Positions 2,939 through 61,128 of a DNA stretch of 64,000 bases are shown piece by piece. The notes under the pieces are model-generated. The model saw only the letters and a program-made list of their open reading frames with translations, was not told where the DNA came from and did not search any database. Position numbers and translations under genes: made by a program. The stretch comes from a virus. Numbering within the stretch: position 1 is the stretch's first letter; every line of letters starts with the position of its first letter. The DNA is taken from positions 1 to 64,000 of the IMG/VR virus record IMGVR_UViG_3300010370_002417. The stretch is one strand, 5' to 3'.

Positions 2939-3454
2939 TCAGAACTTATAGTTCACACCAATCGTTGCGCGATCTTCGCCGGCGTTACGATCGAAATTGT
3001 CGACGTGACGATAACGAGCATCGAGATCGAGCGATGAAGTCAGCGAGAACTTTACGCCACCGCCGATGTTCCAAATTGCTTCGTCCTTGATGTCAGCAAA
3101 GCGATAGCCGACGCCAACGAGAGCATATGGAGTGAACGAGCCGAACTTATAACCACCGACAACATTGCCAGCTACGTCATGCGTTCCGCCCTTCTTGTAG
3201 TCATATGTACCTTCAGCGGCTACACCGATAGGACCGAGACCGATGACATTATAGCCACCGACAACGCCAACGGTCCATGGTGCATCCGAATTGATTCCAT
3301 CAGTAACAACTCCACCAGCATTTACGCCAGCATAGAATGCCTTAGAAGCGAAAATGGGAGCTGGTGCAGCGGGAGCACTCTTTCCAGGAAGGTCAGCGGC
3401 TACGGCGCTAGTCGCACCAAGAACCACTGCGAGTGCAGCGAGTGTATTTCTCAT
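2939..3454 (-). CDS. Outer-membrane beta-barrel protein (Omp25/Omp31-like)
   Basis: A 171-residue protein with a signal peptide (MRNTLAALAVVLGATSAVA) and mature start ADLPGKSAPAAPAP, the hallmark of Rhizobiales Omp25/Omp31-type outer-membrane proteins. Alternating hydrophobic strands follow and the C-terminus ends in Phe (IGVNYKF), the usual signal for barrel assembly. AAGGAG lies five bases before the ATG. It lies between tRNA-Gly and a strong terminator. A phage-borne surface barrel could mask a receptor or alter adsorption (inference). Host-derived origin seems likely. Confidence 0.8.
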   Translation of the reverse strand: MRNTLAALAVVLGATSAVAADLPGKSAPAAPAPIFASKAFYAGVNAGGVVTDGINSDAPWTVGVVGGYNVIGLGPIGVAAEGTYDYKKGGTHDVAGNVVGGYKFGSFTPYALVGVGYRFADIKDEAIWNIGGGVKFSLTSSLDLDARYRHVDNFDRNAGEDRATIGVNYKF

Positions 3455-4239: not shown

Positions 4240-4740
4240 TTACCAATTTTTTTCTACTGGATTTGATATAGCGTCTTCGAGAGGATTTCTCGGCTTGAAC
4301 ATAGAAGAAGGACGTAAACGACCATCTTCACCAATTTGATCCATGTCACAATATATTTCAAACTGATAACCATCAGGATCAAGAAAGTTTATACTGATGT
4401 TACAGCCAGCACCTTTGCGTCCTTCAAAAACTATAGGAATGTTGTTGTCAATGAAATATTGTTTTGCTTTCTGCAATATCTCAATGTTATCAACTTCGAA
4501 CGCAAGATGTTCAACTTGTAACGTACCGCTCATGTCTCGCTCGGACTTTTTACCAGATTGCATTGGCGTAAGACCGATAGCGTGATGATCAGAACCGCAA
4601 CGAAAGAATACCATACCCTTAGCGTTGCGATCTGTTTCCTCGAAGTTCATCACTTCTTTCCAAAACTTGACTGTTCTCTCAATATCGCTTACTTCATAAA
4701 CAAAATGACCAAGTTTGTTGACCTTGATTGGTGATGTCAT
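4240..4740 (-). CDS. VOC-superfamily (glyoxalase/dioxygenase fold) protein
   Basis: A 166-residue protein with two beta-alpha-beta-beta-beta modules. It opens with KLGHFVYEVSDIERTVKFW and has a second half with VEHLAFEV and DPDGYQFEIYCD. The triad His12, His78 and Glu128 matches the metal ligands of the vicinal oxygen chelate superfamily. Whether it is a dioxygenase, glyoxalase or resistance protein cannot be told. Its ATG overlaps the stop of the upstream decarboxylase gene (ATGA). The gene is more AT-rich than its neighbours, a sign of separate acquisition. Confidence 0.8.
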   Translation of the reverse strand: MTSPIKVNKLGHFVYEVSDIERTVKFWKEVMNFEETDRNAKGMVFFRCGSDHHAIGLTPMQSGKKSERDMSGTLQVEHLAFEVDNIEILQKAKQYFIDNNIPIVFEGRKGAGCNISINFLDPDGYQFEIYCDMDQIGEDGRLRPSSMFKPRNPLEDAISNPVEKNW

Positions 4741-5102
4741 GCTTGTCTCGTTAGATAGTTTGGTCGAACATACTTAGCGCCGAAGTATTCCTTAACCAGA
4801 GCGATGACAACCTGATCATCGTACTCCTTGCAAGAGAATACATCGAGATACATTGCGTTTCCACCCATACCATCATCGGGTACGAAGTGGGCGCAGATAT
4901 TGCTGGTCTCGATCAGCTGGACGAGAGTGTATCCAGCCTTGTTACCAGAGCCGAAGTTCACGATCTGCGGCTCGCCATAAGCTACCATGTCGATATCTTT
5001 GACAAGACGCTTGGTGAAGTTGTAAATAGTATCATAGCTGGTAATTGCTGCGTTGTCAAGTTCTGCGCAATCCAGAATGAGATGATAGCCCCAGTAAGAC
5101 AT
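4737..5102 (-). CDS. speD: S-adenosylmethionine decarboxylase homologue (pyruvoyl enzyme)
   Basis: A 121-residue proenzyme-like protein of the short SpeD family, which self-cleaves to form a pyruvoyl cofactor and usually makes decarboxylated AdoMet for spermidine synthesis. The site reads QLIETSNICAHFVPDD: Ser67 is the predicted pyruvoyl Ser, His72 and Cys91 (FSCK) the processing and catalytic residues, with Ser-to-His spacing as in bacterial SpeD. The residue before Ser is Thr rather than the usual Glu of ESH, as I recall for other phage homologues. Some SpeD-like proteins decarboxylate ornithine or arginine instead, so substrate is uncertain. Confidence 0.8.
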   Translation of the reverse strand: MSYWGYHLILDCAELDNAAITSYDTIYNFTKRLVKDIDMVAYGEPQIVNFGSGNKAGYTLVQLIETSNICAHFVPDDGMGGNAMYLDVFSCKEYDDQVVIALVKEYFGAKYVRPNYLTRQA

Positions 5103-9189: not shown

Positions 9190-10125
9190 TCACCACGCTT
9201 TCATAATATTAGACTTCTCTTCCTTTGACAGTGGAACATAATCTAATTCGTCTGCAATCGCGTCACCGTTCTCGAAAGCCCATCTAAAAAAGTTGAACGC
9301 TTCTTTTTGAGCTGTTTCGTTGACAGGTTTCTTGTACATTATAATATACGTTGGTGCAGCAATAGGCCAGTCGCCACTTTGAAATGATTGCTTTCCTGCG
9401 CGAACAATTTTCGTCGACGATTCGCCGCAGGCGTCCGTATAGTTAATCTGTAGAGTCGAATAACTGAGCTTGTTTTGTTTTGCATAAGCATACTCGACGT
9501 ATCCAATGGAGTTCTTAGTTTGTGCTACATTACCTGCAACGCCTTCGTTTCCTCTAGCGCCAACTCCTACAGGCCATTCAAGCGCAGTTCCTACACCGAC
9601 CTTGCTTTTCCACTCATCAGAAACAGACGCAAGATATCTAGCAAAGATAAACGTAGTACCAGAACCGTCACTTCTACGAACTACAGATATGTTTGTGTTA
9701 GGTAGATTGACGTTTGGATTCAGCTTCTTGATAGCTTCGTCATTCCACTTGCTGATCTTACCGAGATAAATGTTGGCTACCGTAGGACCATCAAGAACTA
9801 AATCAGAAATCCCCTCAAGATTATAAACTATCACGTTTCCGCCAATAACAGTTGGAAACTGAAACATTCCGTCCTTATCCAACTGTTGTTGTGTGAGGGG
9901 CATATCAGAAGCGCCAAACGTAACAGTCTTGGATTGGATTTGCTTAATACCTGCGCCCGAACCAACAGACTGATAGTTTACTTGCTTCCCCGTCTCCTTC
10001 TTATATGCGTCAGCCCACTTAGAATATACTGGATACGGGAATGTTGCTCCAGCTCCTGTGACGTCTGACGCATATACGTTAGTAGAAATTAAAATAGAAA
10101 ATACGAGTGCTAATAGCTTATTCAT
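9190..10125 (-). CDS. pstS: Periplasmic phosphate-binding protein PstS
   Basis: A 311-residue substrate-binding protein of the Pst phosphate ABC transporter. Signal peptide MNKLLALVFSILISTNVYA, then SDVTGAGATFPYPVYSKW, VGSGAGIKQI and RRSDGSGTTFIF, the loops that hold phosphate in PstS. Phage-borne pstS is known from cyanophages, where it boosts phosphate uptake for phage DNA synthesis. Here no transporter subunits accompany it, so the product must work with the host PstCAB. No convincing Pho box is seen; the start overlaps the upstream zinc-ribbon gene. Its AT-rich codons suggest acquisition. Confidence 0.93.
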   Translation of the reverse strand: MNKLLALVFSILISTNVYASDVTGAGATFPYPVYSKWADAYKKETGKQVNYQSVGSGAGIKQIQSKTVTFGASDMPLTQQQLDKDGMFQFPTVIGGNVIVYNLEGISDLVLDGPTVANIYLGKISKWNDEAIKKLNPNVNLPNTNISVVRRSDGSGTTFIFARYLASVSDEWKSKVGVGTALEWPVGVGARGNEGVAGNVAQTKNSIGYVEYAYAKQNKLSYSTLQINYTDACGESSTKIVRAGKQSFQSGDWPIAAPTYIIMYKKPVNETAQKEAFNFFRWAFENGDAIADELDYVPLSKEEKSNIMKAW

Positions 10126-12243: not shown

Positions 12244-13251
12244 TTAGCATTTTTTCCAATCTCGGATAGCCAGTTTGAGGGCGAGACCCTTAAACGTGGA
12301 TTTATTTAGTATGTACTCAATCTCAGAACTACTGCATCCAGATAAAATAGCATCATTTATATCTTTATAATTCCAAGACGAATTCCAAATAACCATAGGA
12401 TATCCACGTCCAGCGAATGTTTCAACACGCTTCACAACCTGTTTGTTGCGAGGCTGATTATCGAAGATAAGAACTACGTTCTCACCGCTAATGTTATATA
12501 GGGCCCGCGCAAAGTCTGTTCCTCCCGCAGCGATAGCATTGTCAAGAAACATACTATCAATTGGGCCCTCTGTGACGTATATAGTCTTTCCGCGTTTTAT
12601 GCGATCTAGACCATAGATCAACGGATCGTCGGTAATTCTTACAGTCACGTATCGCAACGTGGAGTTACCCATAGCGCGACCAGTCACGCCAGTAAGCAAT
12701 CCATCTTCACGTCGAAATGGAATAACCAAACGCTCATCGGAAGCCAAACGACCTTCGTATGCAGGATTAAGCTGTTCTAGGATTTTCATATCGCGAGCGT
12801 AATAAAGATCTTCCCAACGTTCTTTGGGTATCTTTCGCGACTTAACATACTCAACTGCGCGATGATGCGATGGTAGTAAATCCACTCGATGAAGCAAATC
12901 GTCGAGAATAATTGATGGACGTACTACTACGGCTTCTTCTTTAGGAATGACGAAAGTTTCATTGTTAGCCGCAACGCGCTCTTTGTAAGATTCCAGCCTG
13001 TAAGCTCGAGCAAGACCAGGATCAACAAGATCAATGAGCTTACCAAGGCTAGCGCCCACGTCGCAATTATGACACTTGTATATAAGCCCACCGGATTTCT
13101 CAAACAGATAGCCGCGAGCCTTCAGTTTGTTTTTCTGAGAGTCGCCGCAGAAGGGACAACGAAAGTTATAGATTCGATCAGACTTCCGCTTGAACAGCGA
13201 AAGCCTGTGCGAGATCATCTGTGCATACTTGTGATCAGTGATAGCAGACAT
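12244..13251 (-). CDS. 61: DNA primase (T4 gp61-like)
   Basis: A 335-residue primase that makes RNA primers with the gp41 helicase. The N-terminus has a zinc finger (FRCPFCGDS with KCHNCDVG) and the middle a TOPRIM-like core: IYVTEGPIDSMF (about 225) and VVLIFDNQPRN. No Shine-Dalgarno sequence precedes the ATG; instead TATAAT ends six bases upstream, so the start codon coincides with the predicted transcription start and the mRNA is probably leaderless. Confidence 0.92.
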   Translation of the reverse strand: MSAITDHKYAQMISHRLSLFKRKSDRIYNFRCPFCGDSQKNKLKARGYLFEKSGGLIYKCHNCDVGASLGKLIDLVDPGLARAYRLESYKERVAANNETFVIPKEEAVVVRPSIILDDLLHRVDLLPSHHRAVEYVKSRKIPKERWEDLYYARDMKILEQLNPAYEGRLASDERLVIPFRREDGLLTGVTGRAMGNSTLRYVTVRITDDPLIYGLDRIKRGKTIYVTEGPIDSMFLDNAIAAGGTDFARALYNISGENVVLIFDNQPRNKQVVKRVETFAGRGYPMVIWNSSWNYKDINDAILSGCSSSEIEYILNKSTFKGLALKLAIRDWKKC

Positions 13252-13257
13252 AGATTC

Positions 13258-13286
13258 ATTATAATAAGCTCAAGAAAGATTGTCAA
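13258..13286 (-). promoter_or_regulatory. Consensus early promoter of the primase gene, leaderless geometry
   Basis: TTGACA (13286-13281), 17-base spacer, TATAAT (13263-13258): a perfect sigma70 consensus. Six bases then separate the -10 box from the ATG. Confidence 0.85.
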
Positions 13287-24336: not shown

Positions 24337-24364
24337 GAGTAATGTGACGAGCGGTCAGTATACC

Positions 24365-25597: not shown

Positions 25598-26337
25598 TCA
25601 AAACAACTTAGGTTCATTTTGCCCTTTTGAATCGTGACGCTTTTGCCGTCAACAGGAGCAATGTTGAAAGGAGACTTCGATTTCATCGAGAATTGCATTT
25701 CAAATGTAAATTGATAGTTGTCGCTGCCCTTGTACTGAACGCGAGCGCGATAGATAGCTTTGGCTGATGCGCCAAATGTAGGAACGTCTTTTAGACCAAG
25801 AGGATTCTTTTTACCCATTAGATAGAATCCATGCGTTCCGACGTTCACATAGTACGTATCTTTCTTATTATAGTATTCTTCGATCTTGGTCGCGGGAATT
25901 TCGCCCTTGATATCTTTGAATAGCTTTAGGTCGCGCTCATATCTTTGACGCGGAGTTTTCTTACCAGCGGTCACTTCCCATGCAGGGTCTTTATCTCTTT
26001 TGTATGGAACTTCTTTCCATTCCTTTTGAATAATCTTGAATAGGCCAACGTAATCGGCTAGTTCTTTGATGAACTGTTTTTCTTTTTCGTCTGGCTTGAT
26101 AGTTCCGAATCCCCAAGGATTCTTTTTATTCTTAGCGTCGTACTTTAGAACAAGAGATCCAGCTGAAGCTGCGGTGATCTTTAGCTCGCAACCAGCTTTG
26201 TTCTTTTTGTACTGTAACATAAGATCAGGTTGATCATGTCCAGCACCAGCAGGCACAAATTCTTTGGGAACAAATCCCATAGGTTTCAATATTTTTGCAG
26301 CGTTCTGCTCATATAGAAATCCTTGTTGCGCCGCCAT
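25594..26337 (-). CDS. PD-(D/E)XK-like nuclease-fold protein
   Basis: A 247-residue protein with the outline of a PD-(D/E)XK nuclease: Glu10 in an N-terminal helix (GFLYEQNAAKIL), Asp38 in HDQPDLML, and Glu51-x-Lys53 in AGCELKITA. A basic middle and a beta-rich C-terminus follow. Its stop overlaps the start of the ligase-like gene. It sits behind its own late box AATAAATA (26363-26370). Nuclease activity is inferred from the motif alone. Confidence 0.6.
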   Translation of the reverse strand: MAAQQGFLYEQNAAKILKPMGFVPKEFVPAGAGHDQPDLMLQYKKNKAGCELKITAASAGSLVLKYDAKNKKNPWGFGTIKPDEKEKQFIKELADYVGLFKIIQKEWKEVPYKRDKDPAWEVTAGKKTPRQRYERDLKLFKDIKGEIPATKIEEYYNKKDTYYVNVGTHGFYLMGKKNPLGLKDVPTFGASAKAIYRARVQYKGSDNYQFTFEMQFSMKSKSPFNIAPVDGKSVTIQKGKMNLSCFE

Positions 26338-28153: not shown

Positions 28154-29575
28154 TTAGAACTTGAAGTTGTTGAATTTGGGTTTAGGCTTGTTGCGCTCAC
28201 GATCTTCCATCCCGAATTTGGTATTATCCATCACAGAGTCATATCGTTTAGTCTTACCACCGCGGCTGTCGTCGATCAAGTCATCCTGGGCTGTTTCTTC
28301 GACATCAAAAAGACGCATTTTGACACGATCGATACCCACGAAGAATCTCTTGTTTTCGCCAGGATCGCTGTAGCGATTTTTCAGCTGCTTGATAAGTATC
28401 TGTCCCCTTTCATCCATATCTTCAGTACGAACAAGAGCAATCATAAAGTCTGCAGTCGCAGGCAAGCCAAACGATTCCGAAGTATCTTCAAGCCCAGGAT
28501 CGCTGTTGGTGTATCCAGAGCGAGTCGTTTGCGTAGCAGAAACAATTGGTACATTCTTCTCAACAGCCAATCCACGCAGTTCTTCAGCGATAGCCTTGAC
28601 ATACGTGTAGCTGTTTACGTTCGATCCGGTCTTGATACGAGACGACATACAGATATTGAGATAATCAATGTAGATAATATCAGGAACAAAATTTCGCTTG
28701 AGATTGAGCTCATTGATAAGATGACGGAAATGTCCAACGTGAGCCGACGCAGTGGGATACTCCTTGATGATTAGCTTGCCAGTAGTCTTGGCTCTGAGCC
28801 TTTCAATCTTCTTTTCATATATATCTTTAGGCAGCATCGCAAGATCTTCTGATGCAACGTTCAACAGATTCGCGTCGATACGCTCAGCGATCTTTTCTTC
28901 AGCCATCTCCATAGTTATATAGAGAACGTTCTTTCCCATCGCAAGATTGGCTGCGGTCATATGACACATAGCCAACGTCTTACCGACGCCAGTTCCTGCA
29001 AGGATAATATTCAAAGATTTGCGAGATAGTCCGCCGCGTGTTACCTTGTTGAGTAACTCAATATCGAATGGGAGCTTTTCTTCAACGCGATGATAATAAT
29101 CAAATCGACGTTCGTAGTCTTCGATGAAGTCATGGCCGATATGACTATCAAATGAAACGCCAAGAGCTTCTGACAAAATCTCAGGGATAGAGTTCTTGGT
29201 GCGATTCTTATCTTTGCCGTCAAGAATAGAGATGCTATCCATGACCGCATTATATACTGCACGTTCTTGACAGAACTGCTCAGTGGTATCGAGAAGCCAT
29301 TGCATTTCGCTAGGCTCAGGCTCGATTAGATTGCGAACGATATCCATCGAACGCTTGTGTTCTTCTTCCGTAAGATTAGTCGCAGATTCAAGTTCAATAC
29401 CAATCGCTTCGCGTGTAGGATTGGTGTTGTACTTAGTCATAAAGTCAGTGATTCGTTTGAACACCTGACGCTCAGACGAATCACTGAAATATTCTTCTTT
29501 TAGAAAAGGTAGAGTCTTACGGGCGAAGTCTTCATTATGAACCAGATTCTTCAGAATCGTCAGTTCGATCTTCAT
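28154..29575 (-). CDS. 41: Replicative DNA helicase (T4 gp41-like, DnaB family)
   Basis: A 473-residue hexameric 5'-3' helicase. The N-terminal half holds the primase-contact domain; the RecA-like core has Walker A ILAGTGVGKT (about 195-205), VLYITMEMAEEKIAERI, Walker B DIIYIDYLNIC and IVSATQTTRSGY. These match DnaB/gp41. I start at 29575 because AAGGA lies six bases before this ATG; a TTG two codons upstream is less likely. It overlaps the 115-residue gene upstream by 41 bases. Confidence 0.93.
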   Translation of the reverse strand: MKIELTILKNLVHNEDFARKTLPFLKEEYFSDSSERQVFKRITDFMTKYNTNPTREAIGIELESATNLTEEEHKRSMDIVRNLIEPEPSEMQWLLDTTEQFCQERAVYNAVMDSISILDGKDKNRTKNSIPEILSEALGVSFDSHIGHDFIEDYERRFDYYHRVEEKLPFDIELLNKVTRGGLSRKSLNIILAGTGVGKTLAMCHMTAANLAMGKNVLYITMEMAEEKIAERIDANLLNVASEDLAMLPKDIYEKKIERLRAKTTGKLIIKEYPTASAHVGHFRHLINELNLKRNFVPDIIYIDYLNICMSSRIKTGSNVNSYTYVKAIAEELRGLAVEKNVPIVSATQTTRSGYTNSDPGLEDTSESFGLPATADFMIALVRTEDMDERGQILIKQLKNRYSDPGENKRFFVGIDRVKMRLFDVEETAQDDLIDDSRGGKTKRYDSVMDNTKFGMEDRERNKPKPKFNNFKF

Positions 29576-29882
29576 TCCCAATCCTTCCTACTTGTTTAAG
29601 TAAAATATCGAAAAGAATACCAGCAATCGTATCTTCAAATCGTTGCTTGATACTATCAGTCAGCATTTCTTCAGCAATGAACGATTCGACGACGTGATAA
29701 TTGAAGTTGAGCATCGCGTCGCCGTTTTCGTCTTCGGTATCGCTTACTTTTAGATTTTCGTAATGATACACCATCCCTTCGAACTCGCCTTCGTTGATTT
29801 TGATGCAAACGAATTTTTCTACTTTGGGATGCATAATATGACTATAATCTACTGCGACCGGATTGTCAATAGCTCTACTCAT
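29535..29882 (-). CDS. Conserved phage protein between uvsX and gene 41
   Basis: A 115-residue acidic protein of unknown function. KVEKFVCIKINEGEFEGMVYHYENLKV and NFNYHVVES form a conserved core that I have seen in T4-like phages at this position. GGAG lies six bases before the ATG at 29882, and the first codons overlap the end of uvsX. A helicase-loading or recombination accessory role is possible by position only. Confidence 0.6.
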   Translation of the reverse strand: MSRAIDNPVAVDYSHIMHPKVEKFVCIKINEGEFEGMVYHYENLKVSDTEDENGDAMLNFNYHVVESFIAEEMLTDSIKQRFEDTIAGILFDILLKQVGRIGNEDRTDDSEESGS

Positions 29883-30933: not shown

Positions 30934-30962
30934 ATACTATCATACTAAGCATAAGTTGTCAA
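30934..30962 (-). promoter_or_regulatory. Early-type promoter of uvsX
   Basis: TTGACA (30962-30957), 17-base spacer, TAGTAT (30939-30934); a normal leader with GGAGG follows. Confidence 0.75.
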
Positions 30963-32150: not shown

Positions 32151-32519
32151 TCATCCTCTAGTTATTTTCAACACAGCATCCAACTGACGCTGACAGACTT
32201 CGCGCCTGTTAGGCCAGTGAATCCATTCTTTATCTGCAGTCTTCAATAGATTATTCAGCAGCGGAACTACGATAGCTTCAAGCTGTCTGATCTTATCGCG
32301 CATTTCTGTTTCTGTAGCACTGGAAGCTACGTTGTTCTGCATTCTGCTAAACTCAACAAGAATGCGATCTAGCTTTTCATCAACAGAATCGAAGCGATCG
32401 TCGAGATCGATATTGATAACTGGCTGCTCAACAGGAGCTGGCTTCGCGAAGTCTGGCTCATCGACTGCGGAGAACCCATAGTCTTGTCCAAGATATTCAG
32501 CAGGGATATTCACAGTCAT
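32151..32519 (-). CDS. Conserved phage protein downstream of DNA polymerase
   Basis: A 122-residue acidic protein with a predicted coiled coil (FDSVDEKLDRILVEFSRMQN) and the conserved C-terminal ADKEWIHWPNRREVC. Seen in T4-like phages next to DNA polymerase; function unknown. Its ATG overlaps the polymerase stop (ATGA). Confidence 0.6.
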   Translation of the reverse strand: MTVNIPAEYLGQDYGFSAVDEPDFAKPAPVEQPVINIDLDDRFDSVDEKLDRILVEFSRMQNNVASSATETEMRDKIRQLEAIVVPLLNNLLKTADKEWIHWPNRREVCQRQLDAVLKITRG

Positions 32520-35011
32520 GCAAAGAAATCCTCCAATGTACTTTGCTTTTCTTCGTGCCAGTTGATCACTTCAAGAATAGCGCGCAACGGCTCGAGAAAC
32601 GTCTTGTCAAATTGCATATCGTAATCAATGTACTTCTTCAGATTGAACTCTGCCGGCAGTTCATTGATCGCAGATATCACATTGTCATGTAATGGGTTTG
32701 GCATCTTGAGATAGGAGAAGCGAATCTTCTCACCATCTTTGATATACTCATACTTCTTATTCAGTTTCATCTCGCGAATCTTGCTGTTATACAACAGAGC
32801 GCCGCGCACATGAATCGGAATAGACTTTGTTTCCTTGGCATATTTAGTTAGATTCTGCACAGATCTTGGGAATGATACTTCTTCGAACGGCAGCTGGTTG
32901 AACTCGCTTCTAAAGTTCGCTATGAAATCCTGCAGCGTTGTTTCATCCTTCGACATAATAATGTTCAGCGCGTCGATGATAGCCTGACGACAAACTGCAG
33001 GAGTCGACGACTTAACTGCTTCGATACCCATGATCTTCAGTTTGGGCTTTGCATATCGCACGCCCTCAGAGTCATGAACGTTGAGGATATATCGTTTCTT
33101 CGCAGTCCAGATACCGCGGTCAGCAATAACCTCGCGCTTCATGTTCATCTTTTGCGCGAACGCCCCCATCCGAATAGCAAGATCCGAATAGATGCGATCA
33201 ATAACTGGTTCGATCTTCTCGCTAGCCATCTTATCAAGGAACGAAACAATCCGATCTTTCGAAACTTCTGAGTCGTTATCCGTCTCTCCTCGTTCTTCAA
33301 ACACCATGTGTACAAGTCTATCAAACGAGATGTAAAGTGAATCCGTATCCGAAGCAATGACATAGTCTTCTCCGTCAGTCTTGAGTAGTTTGTTCAGATA
33401 TTTGTTTATCTCATTCTCAGCCCAGCGAATAGAAAGCTGACCGCCGAGAGTAATCGCTGTAGCCTGATCAATATCAAAGAAACGAAAGTGAGGATTACCA
33501 ATCGCGCCGTAAGCTGAGTTCAACTGAACTTTCTTAGCGAGCTGCATATTTTTGTATCGAGATATATCTTTAGATGCTTGCTTATCTTTCGTCGCTTCGT
33601 ACTTCTTCTGCGCTTCGATCATCTTGTTTTTATATACAACACGATCGTTGTACATACGTTCCATGATCTCAGGTAGGAATCCTTGCTTGTCTTTCTTGAA
33701 GAAGCATCCATTCGCAGCCATGCCATACCCATCCGGCACTTCAGGGAATATGCCATCGAGCAGTTCATCGACGCTGGTCTGTGCTCTCTTTCCACGCAAC
33801 AACGTTTCAGGACTGATGTTGTACTGCATGATAAGATGCGGATACAGAGAGTTCAAGTCGAATGACATAACCCAGTTGTGTGCTCCGACCTGCGGATCTT
33901 TGACGAACGCGCCAACATACGCTTCGTCTTTGCTTCCGCCGCCAGTCAGCGGAACTGCAATCTTCTGCTTCCATAGATGATTGTGAATGATGACGTCCCA
34001 CATACGAACCTGTGTGAACACATCGAGCAATGTGACTTTCGCATCGTACGCGAGCGCGAGAGCCATGTCAATCAGTTTCATCTTGTCATCGAGCTTTTCT
34101 ACGAGCTCAACGTCTCGAATGTTATAGTCGATGAATCGCTGGAAATCTTTTACATAGAACTCATGCAGCGTGTCGTAGTCATATGATAGCTTTCGTTCGC
34201 CTAGCTCAATGAAGCCAATGTGATCTAGCTTGTATGACTCTTGCTGAGAATATGTAAACTTCTGATACATCTCAAGATAGTCGAGAGTCGCGATGCCGCC
34301 GATGTTGAATACAGTTTCTTCTTTGAACTTCGTACGAACCTGACGCTCTTTGAAGATTCTCCACGGTGAGAATCGCTTCGCTTCGCTCTCGCCAATGATT
34401 TGATTCATGCGACGAATGAGATACGGAATATCGAAGAACGTGACGTTCCATCCAGTTACGACATCAGGGTAGCCGCCTTCAGCCCACTCGCTGAGGAAGC
34501 GGGTGAGCAGTTCTCTTTCGTTGTTGCATTGATGATAGAACACATCGTTGCGCGAAGGAACATAGTCGCCATATCCCCACACATGGAATATGCTATCTTT
34601 CTTCAGCGTGATGGCTGTAACTTCGTGGAGTGCTTCGTCTGCGCTTGGAAAGCCAAACTCTGAGCTCACCTCGATATCGATGTACGCGACTTTGATTAGA
34701 TCACGATCGTACACGACTTCTTCTGGATATTCTTCGTTCAGATACGCATAGATAAATCGTGGGAGACCATAGACCTTGAAGTTAGATACATCTTCGTATC
34801 TATTGATAAAGTCTTTAGCCTCTCGGATAGAATCAAACTGCATACTATCCAGGGGCACGCCACGGATATCGCGCCAACCTGCATTCTCACGCTTGGAGGG
34901 AACAAACATCTTTGGCTTGTAGGGAATCTTTTCAGAGAAGGCTTGTCCGCGATCATAGCCGCGGACAAGAATGTTGTTTCCGTACTCGAGAGCATTAGTA
35001 TAGAACTTCAT
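32516..35011 (-). CDS. 43: DNA polymerase, family B (T4 gp43-like)
   Basis: An 831-residue replicative polymerase with 3'-5' exonuclease. Exonuclease residues: VAYIDIEVSSEFG (about 107-119) and WNVTFFDIPYLI. Polymerase motifs: A SFDLNSLYPHLIMQ, B KVQLNSAYGAIGN, C VIASDTDSLYISF. The C-terminal STLEDFFA is a sliding-clamp-binding peptide. No Shine-Dalgarno sequence is seen; TAGTAT ends six bases before the ATG, so the mRNA appears leaderless, in contrast to T4 where RegA acts on the leader. Confidence 0.95.
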   Translation of the reverse strand: MKFYTNALEYGNNILVRGYDRGQAFSEKIPYKPKMFVPSKRENAGWRDIRGVPLDSMQFDSIREAKDFINRYEDVSNFKVYGLPRFIYAYLNEEYPEEVVYDRDLIKVAYIDIEVSSEFGFPSADEALHEVTAITLKKDSIFHVWGYGDYVPSRNDVFYHQCNNERELLTRFLSEWAEGGYPDVVTGWNVTFFDIPYLIRRMNQIIGESEAKRFSPWRIFKERQVRTKFKEETVFNIGGIATLDYLEMYQKFTYSQQESYKLDHIGFIELGERKLSYDYDTLHEFYVKDFQRFIDYNIRDVELVEKLDDKMKLIDMALALAYDAKVTLLDVFTQVRMWDVIIHNHLWKQKIAVPLTGGGSKDEAYVGAFVKDPQVGAHNWVMSFDLNSLYPHLIMQYNISPETLLRGKRAQTSVDELLDGIFPEVPDGYGMAANGCFFKKDKQGFLPEIMERMYNDRVVYKNKMIEAQKKYEATKDKQASKDISRYKNMQLAKKVQLNSAYGAIGNPHFRFFDIDQATAITLGGQLSIRWAENEINKYLNKLLKTDGEDYVIASDTDSLYISFDRLVHMVFEERGETDNDSEVSKDRIVSFLDKMASEKIEPVIDRIYSDLAIRMGAFAQKMNMKREVIADRGIWTAKKRYILNVHDSEGVRYAKPKLKIMGIEAVKSSTPAVCRQAIIDALNIIMSKDETTLQDFIANFRSEFNQLPFEEVSFPRSVQNLTKYAKETKSIPIHVRGALLYNSKIREMKLNKKYEYIKDGEKIRFSYLKMPNPLHDNVISAINELPAEFNLKKYIDYDMQFDKTFLEPLRAILEVINWHEEKQSTLEDFFA

Positions 35012-35017
35012 ATTCTA

Positions 35018-35046
35018 ATACTATCATATCAAGACGCGGTTGTCAA
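35018..35046 (-). promoter_or_regulatory. Early promoter of gene 43, leaderless geometry
   Basis: TTGACA (35046-35041), 17-base spacer, TAGTAT (35023-35018), six bases, then ATG (35011). Confidence 0.8.
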
Positions 35047-35373
35047 GATCCCTTTCTTGGGTAATACAAGTCCAGAACCAAAGTTCTGATTGTATGTGTT
35101 CTCGATCTGTTCGTCTGGTTCGTATGTGAAAAGAACATTGCGCGGATCCAGAATGATTTCTTTGTTCCTAGCCATAGGAATGAAATCAATCAGAGCCATT
35201 TGTGTCTTTCCAGTTGCCGTAGGCTGCAACAGAACAGCTGCAGGTTTCAGCACTCTAATCATATTACCAGCGACACCAACCTTTCCGATGATCTCGTCGC
35301 CATTCAGCAAACGAAGCATCATAATGGTTGTACCAACATCTTGACTAGCAGCATTCACAGGATTCACATTCAT
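35029..35373 (-). CDS. Sm-like-fold phage protein
   Basis: A 114-residue protein. MLRLLNGDEIIGKVGVAGNM followed by IRVLKPAAVLLQP reads like an LSm/Sm core (gly-containing first strand pair, then a beta hairpin), and ends with QNFGSGLVLPKKG. Homologues occur in T4-like phages near gene 43. An RNA-binding role is possible. A second protein of similar N-terminus is at 53716. Confidence 0.5.
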   Translation of the reverse strand: MNVNPVNAASQDVGTTIMMLRLLNGDEIIGKVGVAGNMIRVLKPAAVLLQPTATGKTQMALIDFIPMARNKEIILDPRNVLFTYEPDEQIENTYNQNFGSGLVLPKKGILTTAS

Positions 35374-36812: not shown

Positions 36813-37271
36813 TTAGTCCTTGATTTCGATCTTCTTAGACTTTTGATGCTCTGGAATAAGATTCTCGAGCCACACCTTAAGAATGCCGTTAACGAGCTCT
36901 GCGTTCTTGACTTCTACCGTGTCGGAGAGCGTGAAGTGGCGCGTAAATGCGCGTTCAGCGATTCCCTTATAGAAGTAGTAAACGTTGGCGTTGTCAACGT
37001 CGTTCGCTTCCTTCGTCTTTCCTGAGATGACGAGCTTTCCGTTCTCAAGAGTCATCTCGATGTCTGTCTTGGCGAATCCAGCTACAGCCATCTCGATAAC
37101 GTATTTGTTATCGCCGACCTTCTTGATATTGTATGGAGGATAGCCTGGAAGGCTCTTTCCAATGTTATCAAGTTGAGAGGAGAGGAGCTTGAAGGTCTTG
37201 TCGAATCCTACAGAGAATGGATCGAACTGACCGAAAGGCGAAGGGATTTGTGCGTATTCATTCTTTGCCAT
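36813..37271 (-). CDS. Small heat-shock protein, Hsp20/IbpA family
   Basis: A 152-residue alpha-crystallin-domain chaperone, which holds unfolding proteins. NIKKVGDNKYVIEMAVAGF begins the core, ENGKLVISGK is strand 7, NGILKVWLE strand 9, and the C-terminal KKIEIKD has the I-x-I tail. Phage copies occur in T4-like phages of cyanobacteria. The start at 37271 follows AGGAGGTAACACT; an in-frame extension upstream contains no credible signal. Confidence 0.88.
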   Translation of the reverse strand: MAKNEYAQIPSPFGQFDPFSVGFDKTFKLLSSQLDNIGKSLPGYPPYNIKKVGDNKYVIEMAVAGFAKTDIEMTLENGKLVISGKTKEANDVDNANVYYFYKGIAERAFTRHFTLSDTVEVKNAELVNGILKVWLENLIPEHQKSKKIEIKD

Positions 37272-37323
37272 AGTGTTACCTCCTGTTAGGCAAGGTTGAG
37301 TTTGTGACCTCGAAAGCGTCACA

Positions 37324-37512
37324 TCAGTATATATAAGCGGTGCAACCAAAAATGTCAAGGGTGTTGCACAAATAATATTGGAACCTGTATGCGAAGTAGA
37401 TTCCTACAGCCAGCCCTATATTCAGCAGCTGGCTGAAGAAATGAACTAGGAATAGATCAGTCGACTGATCTTTTCTTCCCGATGTTATACTTGGCTTCCA
37501 GTTTCCAATCAT
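37324..37512 (-). CDS. Possible small membrane protein overlapping regA
   Basis: A 62-codon frame starting inside regA (AAGGA five bases before its ATG) and running past it. The unique part, LLNIGLAVGIYFAYRFQYYL, is hydrophobic. Most of it lies between regA and the Hsp20 promoter, where no other gene exists. The overlap makes the start doubtful. Confidence 0.3.
   Translation of the reverse strand: MIGNWKPSITSGRKDQSTDLFLVHFFSQLLNIGLAVGIYFAYRFQYYLCNTLDIFGCTAYIY
37330..37358 (-). promoter_or_regulatory. Early-type promoter of the Hsp20 gene
   Basis: TTGACA (37358-37353), 17-base spacer, TATATA (37335-37330). Inverted repeat TGCAAC (37341-37346) and GTTGCA (37363-37368) brackets the -35 box. 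Confidence 0.7.
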
Positions 37513-37864
37513 TCTTTTCCTTATGCGCTAGAATCTTGATTTGATTCAGCGGCGCGATAGGATCCTTCGTGCGATTGTCGTCTACAATATCAATCAAGTC
37601 CCACTCAGCCAAAAGATTGGCGATCGTATTGCGACGCGCCTTATCTTCGTCCGAGAAATTCGTAGGTTTGCCGTCGAGCGCAAACAGCTCTTTGAAATGT
37701 ACGATATAGTAACGCCCTTGCTTATGCAGAATGTGACAGGACTGAAACAGAACCTTGTCTCTGCGTGACGCTACACCAATTCTTGTGAGGGTTTCTCTGA
37801 TCTTCAAAAAGTCTTCTGCTGTGCGCAGCTTGACTTCCACCATTGAATCAACCGATGCATTCAT
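37457..37864 (-). CDS. regA: Translational repressor RegA
   Basis: A 135-residue protein close to T4 RegA: TAEDFLKIRETLTRIGVA, then VLFQSCHILHKQGRYYIVHFK and LLAEWDLIDIV. RegA binds leaders of early phage mRNAs and blocks ribosome binding. Since several genes here appear leaderless, its targets may be limited to those with leaders or may include the start region itself. Its ATG overlaps the stop of the gp62 gene (ATGA). Seven extra N-terminal residues compared with T4 RegA. Confidence 0.92.
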   Translation of the reverse strand: MNASVDSMVEVKLRTAEDFLKIRETLTRIGVASRRDKVLFQSCHILHKQGRYYIVHFKELFALDGKPTNFSDEDKARRNTIANLLAEWDLIDIVDDNRTKDPIAPLNQIKILAHKEKNDWKLEAKYNIGKKRSVD

Positions 37865-42504: not shown

Positions 42505-42744
42505 TCAGAGCAGTTCTTGAATCTCAGCCTGCTTTTTCTTCCAGCGAATGATAGCCTGCTGATGCTTCAGTCGACGCTTGATCGAAGGCTTGGTATAATG
42601 TTCACGATCTGCCAAATCGCGCAAGAGATTCTCGCGCTGGACTTTCTTCTTCAAAATGCGCAAAGCACCGTTCACATCATTATTGCGAACAGTGACGGAA
42701 ATACCCTTGAGATGCTCCCAAGGCTCACGATTATCAGTGGACAA
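42505..42744 (-). CDS. rpsU: Ribosomal protein bS21 homologue
   Basis: A 79-residue protein matching bS21: ISVTVRNNDVNGALRILKKK, VQRENLLRDLADREHYTKPS, IKRRLKHQQAIIRWKKK. bS21 sits next to the anti-Shine-Dalgarno region of 16S rRNA and influences initiation. Phage bS21 copies are known from some other large phages. The only start upstream of the conserved part is TTG at 42744, preceded by GGAG nine bases away. A phage bS21 could bias host ribosomes towards phage messages (inference). Confidence 0.88.
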   Translation of the reverse strand: MSTDNREPWEHLKGISVTVRNNDVNGALRILKKKVQRENLLRDLADREHYTKPSIKRRLKHQQAIIRWKKKQAEIQELL

Positions 42745-44329: not shown

Positions 44330-44358
44330 ATTGTATCACAGGCGTCAGTGGTTGTCAA
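44330..44358 (-). promoter_or_regulatory. Early promoter with ATGATGAAAGG leader (CobS-like gene)
   Basis: TTGACA (44358-44353), 17-base spacer, TACAAT (44335-44330), six bases, then ATGATGAAAGG at 44323-44313. Confidence 0.8.
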
Positions 44359-47115: not shown

Positions 47116-47144
47116 ATTGTAGTAAGTTGGCGGGCAATTGTCAA
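47116..47144 (-). promoter_or_regulatory. Early promoter with ATGATGAAAGG leader
   Basis: TTGACA (47144-47139), 17-base spacer, TACAAT (47121-47116), six bases, ATGATGAAAGG. Short inverted repeat CGGGC/GCCCG brackets the -35 box. Confidence 0.8.
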
Positions 47145-47494: not shown

Positions 47495-47523
47495 ATTGTA
47501 CACGGTGGCAGGCTGGTTGTCAA
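47495..47523 (-). promoter_or_regulatory. Early promoter with ATGATGAAAGG leader
   Basis: TTGACA (47523-47518), 17-base spacer, TACAAT (47500-47495), six bases, ATGATGAAAGG. Confidence 0.8.
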
Positions 47524-47750: not shown

Positions 47751-47779
47751 ATTGTATGGGGTATCGGGTTGGTTGTCAA
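47751..47779 (-). promoter_or_regulatory. Early promoter with GTGATGAAAGG leader
   Basis: TTGACA (47779-47774), 17-base spacer, TACAAT (47756-47751), six bases, GTGATGAAAGG. The T-tract of the upstream terminator abuts the -35 box. Confidence 0.8.
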
Positions 47780-48552: not shown

Positions 48553-49688
48553 GACAATTCCTTGTAGGGCTTCAAAATGTTTTCGTAAATGCAAGTAGAA
48601 AGGGCGCACATCATCTTTGGTGCAACCATGCGACCGATGCGTTCAGCCTGCTGATCGAACGTACCAGTCAATTCATAATCATCAGGTAAGCTCATGATAC
48701 GCTTCATTTCTTTGATTGTCAACTTTCTATTCGCCGCGTAGTGCATAACACCACTGGCGCTTCTTTGCTGACCCATCTGTGTGAGCGTAGGAGATGGCTT
48801 GTTGGGAGCTGGTCGTTTCATATTGAAGCAAGACGTCTTACCGTTGACTGGTCCTGGCTTCAATACTTTGTGAGGATTGAAAGGCATTGTTTCCACGAAT
48901 TTCTTCTGGAAACTATTTTCGCAGAAGTCCAGGAGCATTTGAACTTCTGCTGGATCATTATCGATCCCTTCTATTGCGCTGGCGATTGATACACCATCGC
49001 TTGTCGTAGGCATTGGAAATACTCGACTCGCGAGTTGATACTCCTCCAGCCCCAGAGCCGCGAACACATCGTTCCTGACTCCCACGAAGAATGTTCTCAT
49101 ACGACTCTGGGGCACCCCAAACTTCGAAGCATCCATGACTTGATACACCATCTTATAGCCTGGTGTAATGCGTTCGAAGCCTGTTACGAAATCTCTTAGT
49201 TTCTCAATAGCAGCTCGGGCTGTGATTCCCTCGACGTTTTCTGCTATAATGACTTTAGGTTGGATATCCTCTGCAATCCTTATATATTCCAGGAACAAGT
49301 CTTCAATGTTCTTTACAGTCTTGCCATCGGAATATTTTTTCTCTCTGTTCCAACCTTTCTTCCCTTTACCAGAAGATGAAAATGCAGAACACGGTGGAGA
49401 TCCATCAAGAATATCAAGCTCGCCTGGATTTAGATTACCGATCTCGAGCAGATCTTTTCCTTTTATATTCTTGATATCTCCAAGGATTACCTTCGTGTCG
49501 GGAAAGTTGCGCGAATAGGTAGCCACTGCTTCCTCAACGAACTCGTTGATCGCGACAACTTTCCCGCCTGCAAGCCGATATCCAGTTGAAGATCCGCCAC
49601 CGCCTGCGAATGTTGAGACCACCGTAAACAGTTCGCGCGCGGACGAGCGTCGCACATCTTCAATAGTATATGGCTGATAGTTGCTCAC
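48549..49688 (-). CDS. C5-cytosine DNA methyltransferase
   Basis: A 379-residue enzyme methylating cytosine at C5. Motif I TFAGGGGSSTGYRLAGG, motif IV LDGSPPCSAFS with catalytic Cys100, motif VI IIAENVEG, motif VIII FGVPQSRMR and motif X near the C-terminus. An orphan methyltransferase (no restriction partner) fits protection of phage DNA from host enzymes. The GTG start at 49688 overlaps the deformylase stop (GTGA); no ATG is available. Confidence 0.92.
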   Translation of the reverse strand: MSNYQPYTIEDVRRSSARELFTVVSTFAGGGGSSTGYRLAGGKVVAINEFVEEAVATYSRNFPDTKVILGDIKNIKGKDLLEIGNLNPGELDILDGSPPCSAFSSSGKGKKGWNREKKYSDGKTVKNIEDLFLEYIRIAEDIQPKVIIAENVEGITARAAIEKLRDFVTGFERITPGYKMVYQVMDASKFGVPQSRMRTFFVGVRNDVFAALGLEEYQLASRVFPMPTTSDGVSIASAIEGIDNDPAEVQMLLDFCENSFQKKFVETMPFNPHKVLKPGPVNGKTSCFNMKRPAPNKPSPTLTQMGQQRSASGVMHYAANRKLTIKEMKRIMSLPDDYELTGTFDQQAERIGRMVAPKMMCALSTCIYENILKPYKELS

Positions 49689-50215
49689 GCAGTCCTCATT
49701 CTTCGTTCAGCTTTGTTCTTGAAGTTCTTCGCTTGTTCTAGATGAAACCGATTAGCTCTTTGCTGGAATGTGATTCCATTGAGATGATCGTACTCGTGCT
49801 GAAACACGCGAGCAGTATATCCTTCATAACGTGTAGTGCCAGCTTCTCCATCCCATCCACGATAGCGGACACGAATACCGCGCGATCTTTTGATTTTGAT
49901 GAACATCCCAGGATACGTCAGACATCCTTCTTCGTATATCACTTTTTCTTCATCGTAGTCTAGGATGATTGGATTGAATACGCCAATGATGCTTGCTGGA
50001 TCGCTGAAATTGCCAATAACAAAAACGCGAGTCATGATTCCTAGCTGACAAGCAGAAAGACCGACACCTTTGTTGGCTATCATCGTATCGCGCAGAAGCT
50101 CGTACAACTCTTTGGCGTTGTAGTGAGTTCCGTCTTCTGTCGTGTATCCCGCTTCAAAGTCAAACTCTGGGCAGATTTGCGAAAGCCTTGGATCGTTACC
50201 TTTTAGAAGTTCCAT
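49685..50215 (-). CDS. def: Peptide deformylase
   Basis: A 176-residue metallohydrolase that removes formyl groups from N-terminal Met. All three motifs are present: GVGLSACQLG (50-59), EEGCLTYP (Cys98) and VFQHEYDHLNG (His140, Glu141, His144). Phage deformylases are known in cyanophages, where they favour phage or photosystem proteins. Its ATG overlaps the stop of gene 46 by one base (TAATG). Confidence 0.95.
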   Translation of the reverse strand: MELLKGNDPRLSQICPEFDFEAGYTTEDGTHYNAKELYELLRDTMIANKGVGLSACQLGIMTRVFVIGNFSDPASIIGVFNPIILDYDEEKVIYEEGCLTYPGMFIKIKRSRGIRVRYRGWDGEAGTTRYEGYTARVFQHEYDHLNGITFQQRANRFHLEQAKNFKNKAERRMRTA

Positions 50216-51918: not shown

Positions 51919-52100
51919 TTATTCCCAATAATATCACAAGGATGATCTTGGTCATCCCATCTGTATCGACCAACAAGATTTAAGAGAAGGCGCGTCTTAG
52001 TTTCAGCGCATTCAAATATCTGTACGCCTTGGCGACGTTCAATATAAATGTATTCTTTGCCTTCACGACTTATATAGGTTTCGCCAGCAACGAATGTCAT
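51915..52100 (-). CDS. Short protein between genes 47 and 46
   Basis: A 61-residue protein, MTFVAGETYISREGKEYIYI to CDIIGNK. Beta-rich, with one pair of Cys. T4-like phages often have a short gene between 47 and 46 (T4 46.1/46.2 position). Its ATG overlaps the gp47 stop (TGATG) and its TGA overlaps the ATG of gp46. No function recognised. Confidence 0.6.
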   Translation of the reverse strand: MTFVAGETYISREGKEYIYIERRQGVQIFECAETKTRLLLNLVGRYRWDDQDHPCDIIGNK

Positions 52101-53161
52101 CACTCAGTTTCCATTTGAAGAGCTTCATTATATAACGAACGCATGAGCTTGTCAAGTTTTTCATTATCTACATTAGACTCAATCGTCTTGATATATTTCG
52201 ACAGAATCGTAAGAGTATCTTCAGCCTCATTCAATAATTCTTGCTCGTCGATAGAATCCATGTTGCGATGATCTTCGACGATAGTAACTTCAATTGGGCT
52301 GGCTTCGTAGAGCTTCGTAGTAAACAAATCAAACGTGAACGGATTATCTTTGTTAGATACAATGAGTTTTACGTATGCGCCAGCATACTTACTGAAGTCG
52401 CGTTCTAGGATTTCTTCTGTCGTCTTATCTTTATCGTTGTACCACACTTTGCGAAACATCTTGTAAGGATTTTCTATAAACGCCAACTCACGAGTTTCAG
52501 TATCGAAGATATGGAATCCCTTAGGGTCATCGTAGTCGCTCCAAGTAAATTCAGCATGACTACCAAGATAATGGATATTCCCACTAGAGGAACGATGATG
52601 ATAATGACCAGAGCATACCAAATCAAACCTATCAAAAATAGACCGGTCATCACCGTGACTGACAGGACTGCCTCGATACATTTCGAAGCCAGCGATTTCA
52701 AGATGTCCCATGCAGATTTGAGCATTGGTCTTCCTTATGAGATTCATCGCGTGTTCACGATTGTCTTCGCAAATCCACGGCATAAACAAAATCTTGACAC
52801 CATCGAACTCGACTTCCGTCGCTTCTTCATACAGAATGAAGTCGTCTAGATACGCTTCTCTAATGGCGTTGACTGAATTCGTATTCTTGTAATAGGTGTC
52901 GTGGTTTCCGAGGGTGAGATGTGGCTTGATGCCTCTTGCGTGTAGAGGTGAAATAAAATCCTCACGCAGGCGTCGCGCTGTATAGATGTTAATGTATTTA
53001 CGGCGATCAACAAGATCACCGAGATGGATAACAGTAGAGATGCTATTATCATCGATATACGGAAAGAAAACATTATCTAGAAACTTCTTGTTGTTGTCAA
53101 GGAACGCAATCTGATCGTTGCGCACACCCCAGTGGGTGTCAGTGATAATAGCAATTTTCAT
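52100..53161 (-). CDS. 47: Recombination nuclease subunit gp47 (SbcD/Mre11-like)
   Basis: A 353-residue metallophosphoesterase: ITDTHWG (Asp8, His10), VIHLGDLVDRR, LTLGNHDTYY, MGHLEIAG and SGHYHHRS carry the two-metal site. It works with gp46. No Shine-Dalgarno sequence precedes the ATG; TAGAAT ends six bases before it, so the transcript appears leaderless. Confidence 0.94.
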   Translation of the reverse strand: MKIAIITDTHWGVRNDQIAFLDNNKKFLDNVFFPYIDDNSISTVIHLGDLVDRRKYINIYTARRLREDFISPLHARGIKPHLTLGNHDTYYKNTNSVNAIREAYLDDFILYEEATEVEFDGVKILFMPWICEDNREHAMNLIRKTNAQICMGHLEIAGFEMYRGSPVSHGDDRSIFDRFDLVCSGHYHHRSSSGNIHYLGSHAEFTWSDYDDPKGFHIFDTETRELAFIENPYKMFRKVWYNDKDKTTEEILERDFSKYAGAYVKLIVSNKDNPFTFDLFTTKLYEASPIEVTIVEDHRNMDSIDEQELLNEAEDTLTILSKYIKTIESNVDNEKLDKLMRSLYNEALQMETE

Positions 53162-53167
53162 AATGTA

Positions 53168-53196
53168 ATTCTATCACGCTACCTTAGAGTTGTCAA
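53168..53196 (-). promoter_or_regulatory. Early promoter of gene 47, leaderless geometry
   Basis: TTGACA (53196-53191), 17-base spacer, TAGAAT (53173-53168), six bases, then ATG (53161). Confidence 0.8.
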
Positions 53197-54111: not shown

Positions 54112-55567
54112 CATCACTCCTTAGCTTGATAGCGTGCAGTTCATAAGGAAACCCTTCGCTATTATACATCTTGACACGTTCAATAAGATGATTGAGAGTA
54201 TAGTTTTTCTTATTGCTGTGTGACAGATTATCAGCGATATCAAATAGTGTGCAAGTATTCTTTACGTCTGAAATGCGAAGTCCACGACCAATAGATTGCA
54301 GCGTTCTAATACGACTCTTCGTTGGGCTTGCGAATATGACGTTGTGTAGGTTTCTGATATTTATACCCGTCGAGAATGTGCCGTAAGATGCGACGATTAT
54401 AGCATCAGTTTCTTTCTCTACGATACTGCGAATCTCTTCGCGTTCTTCACCGTCAACGCCGCCATGCACGAAAAACACTTTACGATTCTCAGCTTTGTTG
54501 TTTATCAGATCGTAGAGAACTTGTCCATGCTTCTCGACGTATGCGTAGAGTATCAGCGTATTACCTTTGAGCGATAGCGCAAGATTACGGATAAATGTGT
54601 TGCGCGGCGGAAACGAGATTATATGCTCGACTTCTTCCTGATAGCTGCATCCAGCTAGTCGCTTGCATTCTTCGATAGGATGATTGAGCGTAAGAACTTT
54701 CACTTTGAGCTGTGCGAGTTTACCCGTATCAATAAGTTCTTTCGTATCGATGATCTTATGCGTAGGACCAAACAATCCTGTTAGTACAAGCTCGTTGACC
54801 TGCGATCCATCCAGTGTACCAGTAAGACCAAAACGATATTTCGTGTTAGTCATATTAGTCATGATCTTTGTAAGAGACTGCGCTTTGAACAGATGCGCTT
54901 CGTCACCTATGATTAGATCAAACGAATCAAAATACGATTTAGGAAGTTCATAAACCGATTGCCATGTTGAGATGGTAACAGGCTTATTAGATGCTTTGTC
55001 TTGTCCACCAAATACAGTATGAACGTTAGCATCGACATCAAAACCGTAATCAGCAAAATCGGAACGTAGCTGATGAACAAGAGAAATAGTCGGAACAAGT
55101 ATAAGAGCACGACCAGCATAATAACGAACCAATGAGTAGATGATTAGTGACTTACCACTAGCAGTAGGAGAAATGAGAATACCGCGATTGTTCCTAATCG
55201 CCAGAGCAAGTGCGCGTATTTGATGCTCGTGAGCTTCGAATGGTAGATTGAGTGATTGTGTGAACTCTTTTGCTTCTGCAAGAGAATATTCCTCTGTTTC
55301 TATTAAATTGGAATCAACTTCGATGGAGTAGTCGCGTTCTTCGCAGAATTGCTTGATCTCGTTAGCCAGTCCTGCATACGTTTGCATGTTGCGTGAGTTG
55401 AGCAAACGAATCTTTCCATCCCACACACGCGACTTATATTTTGGTGAGAACTTAGCTCCAGGCACTTCAAAAGTTAAATGTTCCGCGAGCTCGCGCGCGA
55501 TACCCATATCGCCGTCTACGCGAAGCCATGCTTCATTTACTTTTGTGAGCTTTAGGTCAGAATCCAT
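54071..55567 (-). CDS. uvsW: DNA helicase UvsW
   Basis: A 498-residue superfamily 2 helicase. GILISPTASGKSLIIYSLVR is motif I, LIIGDEAHLFKAQSL motif II (DEAH), FGLTGTLDG motif III, and VASYGTFSTGINI with QSIGRGLR motifs V-VI. It unwinds branched DNA and removes R-loops. I start at MDSDLKLT (55567), which overlaps the end of the UvsY gene; an in-frame start seven codons earlier is possible. Confidence 0.92.
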   Translation of the reverse strand: MDSDLKLTKVNEAWLRVDGDMGIARELAEHLTFEVPGAKFSPKYKSRVWDGKIRLLNSRNMQTYAGLANEIKQFCEERDYSIEVDSNLIETEEYSLAEAKEFTQSLNLPFEAHEHQIRALALAIRNNRGILISPTASGKSLIIYSLVRYYAGRALILVPTISLVHQLRSDFADYGFDVDANVHTVFGGQDKASNKPVTISTWQSVYELPKSYFDSFDLIIGDEAHLFKAQSLTKIMTNMTNTKYRFGLTGTLDGSQVNELVLTGLFGPTHKIIDTKELIDTGKLAQLKVKVLTLNHPIEECKRLAGCSYQEEVEHIISFPPRNTFIRNLALSLKGNTLILYAYVEKHGQVLYDLINNKAENRKVFFVHGGVDGEEREEIRSIVEKETDAIIVASYGTFSTGINIRNLHNVIFASPTKSRIRTLQSIGRGLRISDVKNTCTLFDIADNLSHSNKKNYTLNHLIERVKMYNSEGFPYELHAIKLRSDDATGRRSLFSETE

Positions 55568-55994
55568 TCGTGAACTTTCGCCACTCAATCGCAGACTTGA
55601 TATCGTATCCGCGCTTGTGAATGCACTTCATAATTTCTACGATCACTTCAACCTTTTCTTCGAGCAACGCTATCCGTTCATCCATCTTGATAAGATCGCG
55701 GTCTGAATCTATGTAGCCCTGAACTTCGTTCTTCAGGACTTTGTTAAGAAATGGCTCGCGCCCAATACGTTCGAGATCTTGTGGATTGTTTAGATTGCCA
55801 AGATAATAATCACGGAGCGTGCTATAATGTGACTTCTTCTTAATCATGATCGCGCGCAATTGACTGCGCGTTTCGCTCAGTAGGCGATTGTATTTGGCGT
55901 GTAATGAGGATATGTTAAGAGAGTCGGCGTCCAAGTTAAGATCATCGTACTTGGCGTCTTTTTCCCACATTTCATAAAGTTCTTCAAGGGTCAT
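55557..55994 (-). CDS. uvsY: Recombination mediator UvsY
   Basis: A 145-residue helical protein like UvsY: MTLEELYEMWEKDAKYDDLN, SLHAKYNRLLSETRSQLRAI, MIKKKSHYSTLRDYYLG. UvsY loads UvsX on single-stranded DNA. It is next to uvsW, as in T4. No Shine-Dalgarno sequence: TAGAAT ends six bases before the ATG, so the mRNA appears leaderless. Confidence 0.88.
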   Translation of the reverse strand: MTLEELYEMWEKDAKYDDLNLDADSLNISSLHAKYNRLLSETRSQLRAIMIKKKSHYSTLRDYYLGNLNNPQDLERIGREPFLNKVLKNEVQGYIDSDRDLIKMDERIALLEEKVEVIVEIMKCIHKRGYDIKSAIEWRKFTNGF

Positions 55995-56000
55995 TTTATA

Positions 56001-56029
56001 ATTCTACTACAGATTAAGCCAGTTGTCAA
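56001..56029 (-). promoter_or_regulatory. Early promoter of uvsY, leaderless geometry
   Basis: TTGACA (56029-56024), 17-base spacer, TAGAAT (56006-56001), six bases, then ATG (55994). A mirrored TTGACA on the plus strand (56043-56048) makes a 9-bp inverted repeat at 56023-56049. Confidence 0.8.
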
Positions 56030-61116: not shown

Positions 61117-61128
61117 AAAAACATCTTG

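Follow-up and report, generated by a model that had tools for sequence, protein, structure and literature searches.

Promoters and genes in the window

The window is a stretch of 64,000 nucleotides from a 77,258-base IMG/VR virus record, which is incomplete. The record belongs to a T4-like phage, as judged by its gp23, gp43, UvsX, UvsY, gp44, gp45, gp47, and gp55 genes. Among named phages, Melnitz (OM43) and cyanophages are the nearest (approximately 40–51%). The primase gene was identified by its match to PHROG 47, and gp43, gp47, and UvsY were identified by Pfam and/or PHROG (Table 1). The window also carries auxiliary genes. One of these, a PstS-like gene, has its nearest cellular matches in alphaproteobacteria; at approximately 57% identity these are too distant to name a host, and the gene is a weak hint. 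A peptide deformylase gene lies at 49685–50215; such genes are common in cyanophages too. An Rfam search returned two tRNAs only.

Four sites on the minus strand, at the primase, gp43, gp47, and UvsY genes, have the arrangement TTGACA-N17-TAnnnT-N6-ATG, as an earlier note on this sequence had claimed. The same note had described these genes as lacking a Shine–Dalgarno (SD) sequence, and SD is indeed absent at all four and present at most neighboring genes. A fifth clean case, which the note had not included, is found at a 99-aa ORF (ATG at 29834). This ORF has no family match, and it too lacks an SD. The −35 box of the gp43 promoter falls within the end of an upstream ORF (35029–35373).

The promoters form a genuine class in this phage. 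The pattern TTGACA-N16..18-TAnnnT matches the coding strand at 29 places and the other strand at 2, and its reversed control pattern has 3 and 1. An ATG stands at exactly N6 after 8 of the 30 strict N17 promoters, whereas other positions average 1.1. None of 20,000 rotations reached 8 (rotation test, p < 1e-4). When the ATGATGAAAGG-class promoters are removed, an ATG at N6 is found after 5/27, with p = 0.00175 in the rotation test.

The genes with the leaderless geometry use TTGACA-type promoters, as opposed to the late-type motif TTATAAATA at some SD-led genes. The late-type motif was seen upstream of SD-led genes at 61117, 59283, and 24299 (minus strand). Over their first 50 nt, the five predicted leaderless mRNAs do not consistently show less structure than SD-led genes, and reduced 5′ structure was rejected as their common feature.

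Table 1. Features of the window discussed in the text, in window coordinates.
Feature	Position	Strand	Details
Primase promoter	13258..13286	-	TTGACA (13286-13281)-N17-TATAAT (13263-13258)-GAATCT-ATG; predicted +1 = A of ATG 13251
DNA primase (gp61-like), predicted leaderless	12244..13251	-	PHROG 47, E 5e-69; no SD
gp43 promoter	35018..35046	-	TTGACA-N17-TAGTAT-TAGAAT-ATG (35046 to 35011)
DNA polymerase gp43 (family B), predicted leaderless	32516..35011	-	Pfam PF00136/PF03104; no SD
gp47 promoter	53168..53196	-	TTGACA-N17-TAGAAT-TACATT-ATG (53196 to 53161); overlaps gp55 gene end
gp47/SbcD-like nuclease subunit, predicted leaderless in this lineage only	52100..53161	-	PHROG 100, Pfam PF00149
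uvsY promoter	56001..56029	-	TTGACA-N17-TAGAAT-TATAAA-ATG (56029 to 55994)
UvsY recombination mediator, predicted leaderless	55557..55994	-	Pfam PF11056, E 1e-22
Promoter of the fifth case	29841..29869	-	TTGACA-N17-TATAGT-CATATT-ATG
99-aa ORF, predicted leaderless	29535..29834	-	between uvsX and gp41-like helicase gene
uvsX promoter, contrast case	30934..30962	-	same promoter type, but SD leader (GGAGGT, ATG 30915)
RegA translational repressor gene	37457..37864	-	Pfam PF01818, E 6e-43, match 37460-37864
Phage-encoded ribosomal protein bS21	42505-42744	-	match 42544-42699; PF01165, 57 bits
Promoter with ATG at N6 (47488)	47495..47523	-	then SD-like AAAGGA and in-frame second ATG (47470)
Promoter with ATG at N6 (47109)	47116..47144	-	AAAGG, in-frame second ATG
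Promoter ahead of ATPase gene, ATG at N6 (44323)	44330..44358	-	AAAGG, in-frame ATG 44302
GTG version, GTG at N6 (47744)	47751..47779	-	ATG 3 nt on, AAAGGA, in-frame ATG
PstS-like phosphate-binding protein	9190-10125		auxiliary gene
OmpA-like barrel	2939-3454		auxiliary gene
S-adenosylmethionine decarboxylase	4737-5102		auxiliary gene
Hsp20	36813-37358		auxiliary gene

Promoter spacing and initiation classes among relatives

We collected relatives by protein similarity and not by promoter. For each relative the ATG was set from the protein alignment, and the promoter was looked for afterwards. The earlier note had proposed a scan of sibling phages for the same −10-to-ATG distance, and this distance is kept at primase, gp43, and UvsY. 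It is 5–7 nt (N5–N7) in 42/47 distinct starts of primase, 36/44 of gp43 (5/6 nt), and 39/39 of UvsY (6/7 nt). Pooled, these are 117 of 130 distinct starts, in each of which the −10 box lies approximately 12 nt upstream of the start codon. The distance is exactly 6 in 98 of the 117, with 5 and 7 also occurring, and SD is absent in 116.

The sequence between the −10 box and the ATG has 13 distinct forms in primase, 21 in gp43, and 25 in UvsY, so that its length, and not its sequence, is conserved. The N-terminus of gp43 varies by one codon among relatives (MKFY vs MTKFY/MSKFY), and the promoter is 5–6 nt from the ATG in both forms. Some UvsY relatives have an 18-nt promoter spacer, and the −10-to-ATG distance is still 6. 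Primase relatives of 50–56% identity keep the trait with quite different promoter sequences. The base at −1 of the ATG is a pyrimidine in 109/117 of the N5–N7 starts, compared with 69/144 of SD-led or promoterless starts, which is what a preferred transcription start site (YR) would show. The relatives are non-independent samples, and Fisher tests therefore overstate significance.

The start codon is ATG in 130/130 starts of the three families, which is a mild test because the start-reading script favors an ATG if one is near. Non-AUG starts on leaderless mRNA are inefficient in most bacteria. In Sinorhizobium meliloti all 171 mapped leaderless starts are AUG (PMC3616915). The conserved position, the lack of an SD, the ATG-only starts, and a −10 box that tracks the ATG support putative leaderless mRNAs at primase, gp43, and UvsY on sequence grounds. 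An SD-bearing conserved leader, named beforehand as an observation that would count against this, was found at none of the three genes in close relatives. SD leaders are confined to remote UvsY relatives (<45% identity) and to gp43 of Melnitz.

In the primase tree the geometry is present in 57 of 70 distinct rows, through clades of approximately 50–99% identity, and at least 6 gains or losses are needed. One of the losses is the relative L112 (94% identity), in which an insertion of approximately 640 bp follows codon 6 (L112:4358–5001). The leaderless promoter and the first six codons persist upstream of this insert, and primase restarts downstream of it. The insert is possibly a mobile endonuclease element.

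Among named phages, the cultured Melnitz (OM43 Methylophilales) has TTGACA-N17-TATATT-N7-ATG at primase, with the ATG at 26014 of MZ577096. In HTVC008M a small ORF that precedes gp45 has a leaderless-like spacing. The trait is absent at the orthologues examined in cyanophages, phiM12, T4, and Cr30.

The geometry had been read in the earlier note as a leaderless mode for key early genes, among them gp47. This stands for primase, gp43, and UvsY but not as the general mode of early or replication genes. Within the clade uvsX, gp45, gp44, and RegA have SD-led starts, which rules out a leaderless mode for the whole class of key early genes. The gp41 gene is mostly SD-led in the clade, with the leaderless geometry in a few remote relatives. 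For gp47 the claim holds in the window and its closest relatives (L271, L272, and L191) only. In most other relatives gp47 has neither promoter nor SD and may be coupled to the preceding gene. Of the relatives in which the start of the 99-aa ORF can be read, L323 alone shows the geometry. Because gp47 and the 99-aa ORF are thus limited to close relatives, the conserved leaderless set of this large, uncultured phage family consists of primase, gp43, and UvsY. The earlier note is partly supported: its observation is correct and is stronger for three of the four genes, and its reading is right in kind and too broad.

The same promoter type also precedes SD-led genes, at −10-to-ATG distances of 17–21 nt for uvsX (some 45), 17–36 nt for gp45, 23–24 nt for a 759-aa peptidase-like gene, and 26–34 nt for an ATPase. 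An SD is present in 69/71 starts of these four genes (distances 17–45 nt). None of the 190 promoter-bearing starts falls at 8–16 nt. Two initiation classes, leaderless and SD-led, are indicated most clearly by this gap. A comparable bimodal distribution of leader lengths has been reported for Lactococcus cremoris (PMC10986495).

A further group of promoters, likewise not included in the earlier note, is predicted from sequence to give dual starts, in which a 5′-terminal AUG is combined with an SD start and the N-termini are of the MMKG type (sites 44323, 47109, 47488, and 47744). An upstream ATG at N6 was counted in 50/186 SD-led promoters of the window and its relatives; this sample is biased, and the rate inflated, by loci L081–L110, which were fetched with the ATGATGAAAGG motif. 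Two of the 50 cases are in the window, plus one related window case. The count at N6 is far above that at neighboring positions, except for N9, where the second ATG of ATGATG falls. The first AUG is in frame with the SD-led start in 39/50, in a sample enriched by the search. The remaining 11/50 are out of frame, which rules out an in-frame 5′-terminal AUG as a property of the whole ATGATGAAAGG class.

Upstream starts were also seen elsewhere. In L349, L028, L030, and L032 the SD-led start of uvsX, at N45, has an in-frame ATG ahead of it at N6, possibly giving a 13-codon N-terminal extension (MLKDWFFLRR...). The promoter at 2249–2277 of the window (minus strand) has ATG TGA, a start followed by an immediate stop, at N5. 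This makes a minimal 5′-proximal uORF upstream of the SD-led gene at 2215.

Proposed mode of expression and alternatives

We propose, with a probability of roughly 0.85, that primase, gp43, and UvsY, and in this lineage also gp47 and the 99-aa ORF, are expressed as leaderless mRNAs, each from its own host-sigma70-type promoter. The N5–N7 spacing and the pyrimidine at −1 suggest that the first nucleotide of the mRNA would be the A of AUG. The ribosome (the 70S form, by analogy) would bind the 5′-terminal AUG directly, without pairing to an SD. On polycistronic read-through RNA these genes would be poorly translated, since they have no SD, and the output of each gene would be set mainly by its own promoter. 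A leaderless gp43 mRNA, having neither leader nor SD, would offer no place for a T4-type operator hairpin, and T4-type autoregulation of gp43 through a leader RNA operator would be impossible on it. RegA is encoded in this phage, so the question raised in the earlier note, of how it acts on gene 43, stands. RegA could bind at codons near the gp43 AUG.

A close variant is that transcription starts 1–4 nt upstream of the ATG, leaving a very short leader with translation that is still SD-independent. The choice of start by RNA polymerase is not strict to the single nucleotide, and distances of 5 and 7 occur besides 6. HTVC008M has N11–N12 between TATAAT and ATG at both primase and gp43, without an SD. 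The predominance of distance 6 and of the −1 pyrimidine among the 117 starts nevertheless favors the A of ATG as +1, and we consider a short leader unlikely. Much less probable is translational coupling, in which ribosomes that end the upstream gene would translate the SD-less genes and the adjacent promoter would be incidental. The gp43 and gp47 starts, 17 and 12 nt past the upstream stop, would suit it, as would most gp47 relatives, which resemble coupled genes in having neither promoter nor SD. However, primase and UvsY have the same geometry 38 and 100 nt past the upstream stop, which makes coupling unlikely at UvsY, and incidental promoters would not hold a fixed distance in 117 starts. 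Coupling may contribute at gp47.

That promoters and start codons match by chance in an AT-rich intergenic context has a negligible probability in our estimate. The four sites were picked from 64 kb in the earlier note, and an out-of-context ATG at N5 also occurs, for example at 24344 (plus strand). Against this stand the rotation test, with or without the ATGATGAAAGG class, and the conservation of the geometry across dozens of relatives, which rules out chance for primase, gp43, and UvsY. Chance is not fully refuted for gp47 and the 99-aa ORF, which share the geometry with near relatives only. A phage IF3 was rejected as an explanation, as no homologue was matched in the 77-kb record, itself incomplete; this has no bearing on host IF levels. 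A search for RegB gave no match, with a model that matched no control genome either.

A broader version of the leaderless reading is a two-mode program. It would consist of a leaderless regulon (primase, polymerase, and UvsY) favored by a ribosome state that prefers 5′-terminal AUGs, and a dual class in which a 5′-terminal AUG is in frame with an SD start, with phage bS21 shifting ribosomes between the modes. bS21 affects SD use in some bacteria, and a link to leaderless translation is conceivable. We regard the program as doubtful. Melnitz also encodes bS21.

Comparison with known systems

Leaderless mRNA is of a known kind, and its conserved use for core replication genes in a T4-like clade looks undescribed; a partial literature search found no description of leaderless core replication genes in T4-like phages. 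T4 is the textbook example of leader-based translational control of replication genes (RegA, and the gp43 and gp32 operators). A related clade predicted to lack leaders on primase, polymerase, and UvsY would have to regulate these genes by other means, the simplest being the promoter. The system is also a natural experiment, as the same promoter type in one phage feeds both leaderless and SD-led genes. For annotation, the start codons of these genes are fixed, and gene callers that rely on SD may place them wrongly. Because the cultured Melnitz has the geometry at primase, the prediction is open to a test. The portion of the Melnitz paper considered here gives early and late promoters and does not discuss leaderless expression of the phage's own genes (PMC9004378).

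Kasugamycin is reported to spare leaderless translation (PMC5230787). Leaderless bacterial genes are marked by a TAnnnT signal approximately 12 bp upstream of the start (PMC3160421). In Deinococcus-Thermus a −10 motif of this form is adjacent to ORFs, a few bases before the start, and the spacing is required (PMC12340547, PMC3160421). The sites described here are similar in this respect; they differ in having a full TTGACA −35 box and in their phage setting. The predicted dual starts resemble the 5′-terminal AUGs that exist on SD-bearing mRNAs of E. coli and can be translated, where an AUG at the mRNA 5′ end (here predicted) comes first, then an SD, and then the main start (PMC4965119). Unlike in E. 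coli, the two AUGs often share a reading frame here, giving MMKG-type N-termini.

In phages, the leaderless mRNA of lambda cI from PRM concerns one repressor gene of a temperate phage, whereas here a conserved replication and recombination gene set of T4-like phages is concerned. T4 and RB69 share with this phage the same gene 43 and a RegA orthologue, but their gene 43 is controlled through an autogenous translational operator, a region that a leaderless mRNA would not contain. The lytic phage phiYS40 of Thermus thermophilus is similar in having leaderless mRNAs for one gene class, and its leaderless transcripts are middle and late (PMC3594737). Its host itself widely uses leaderless mRNAs, and infection shifts IF2/IF3. 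Here, unlike in phiYS40, the set is small, its promoters are of the sigma70 (early) type, and it stands beside SD-led genes with the same promoter.
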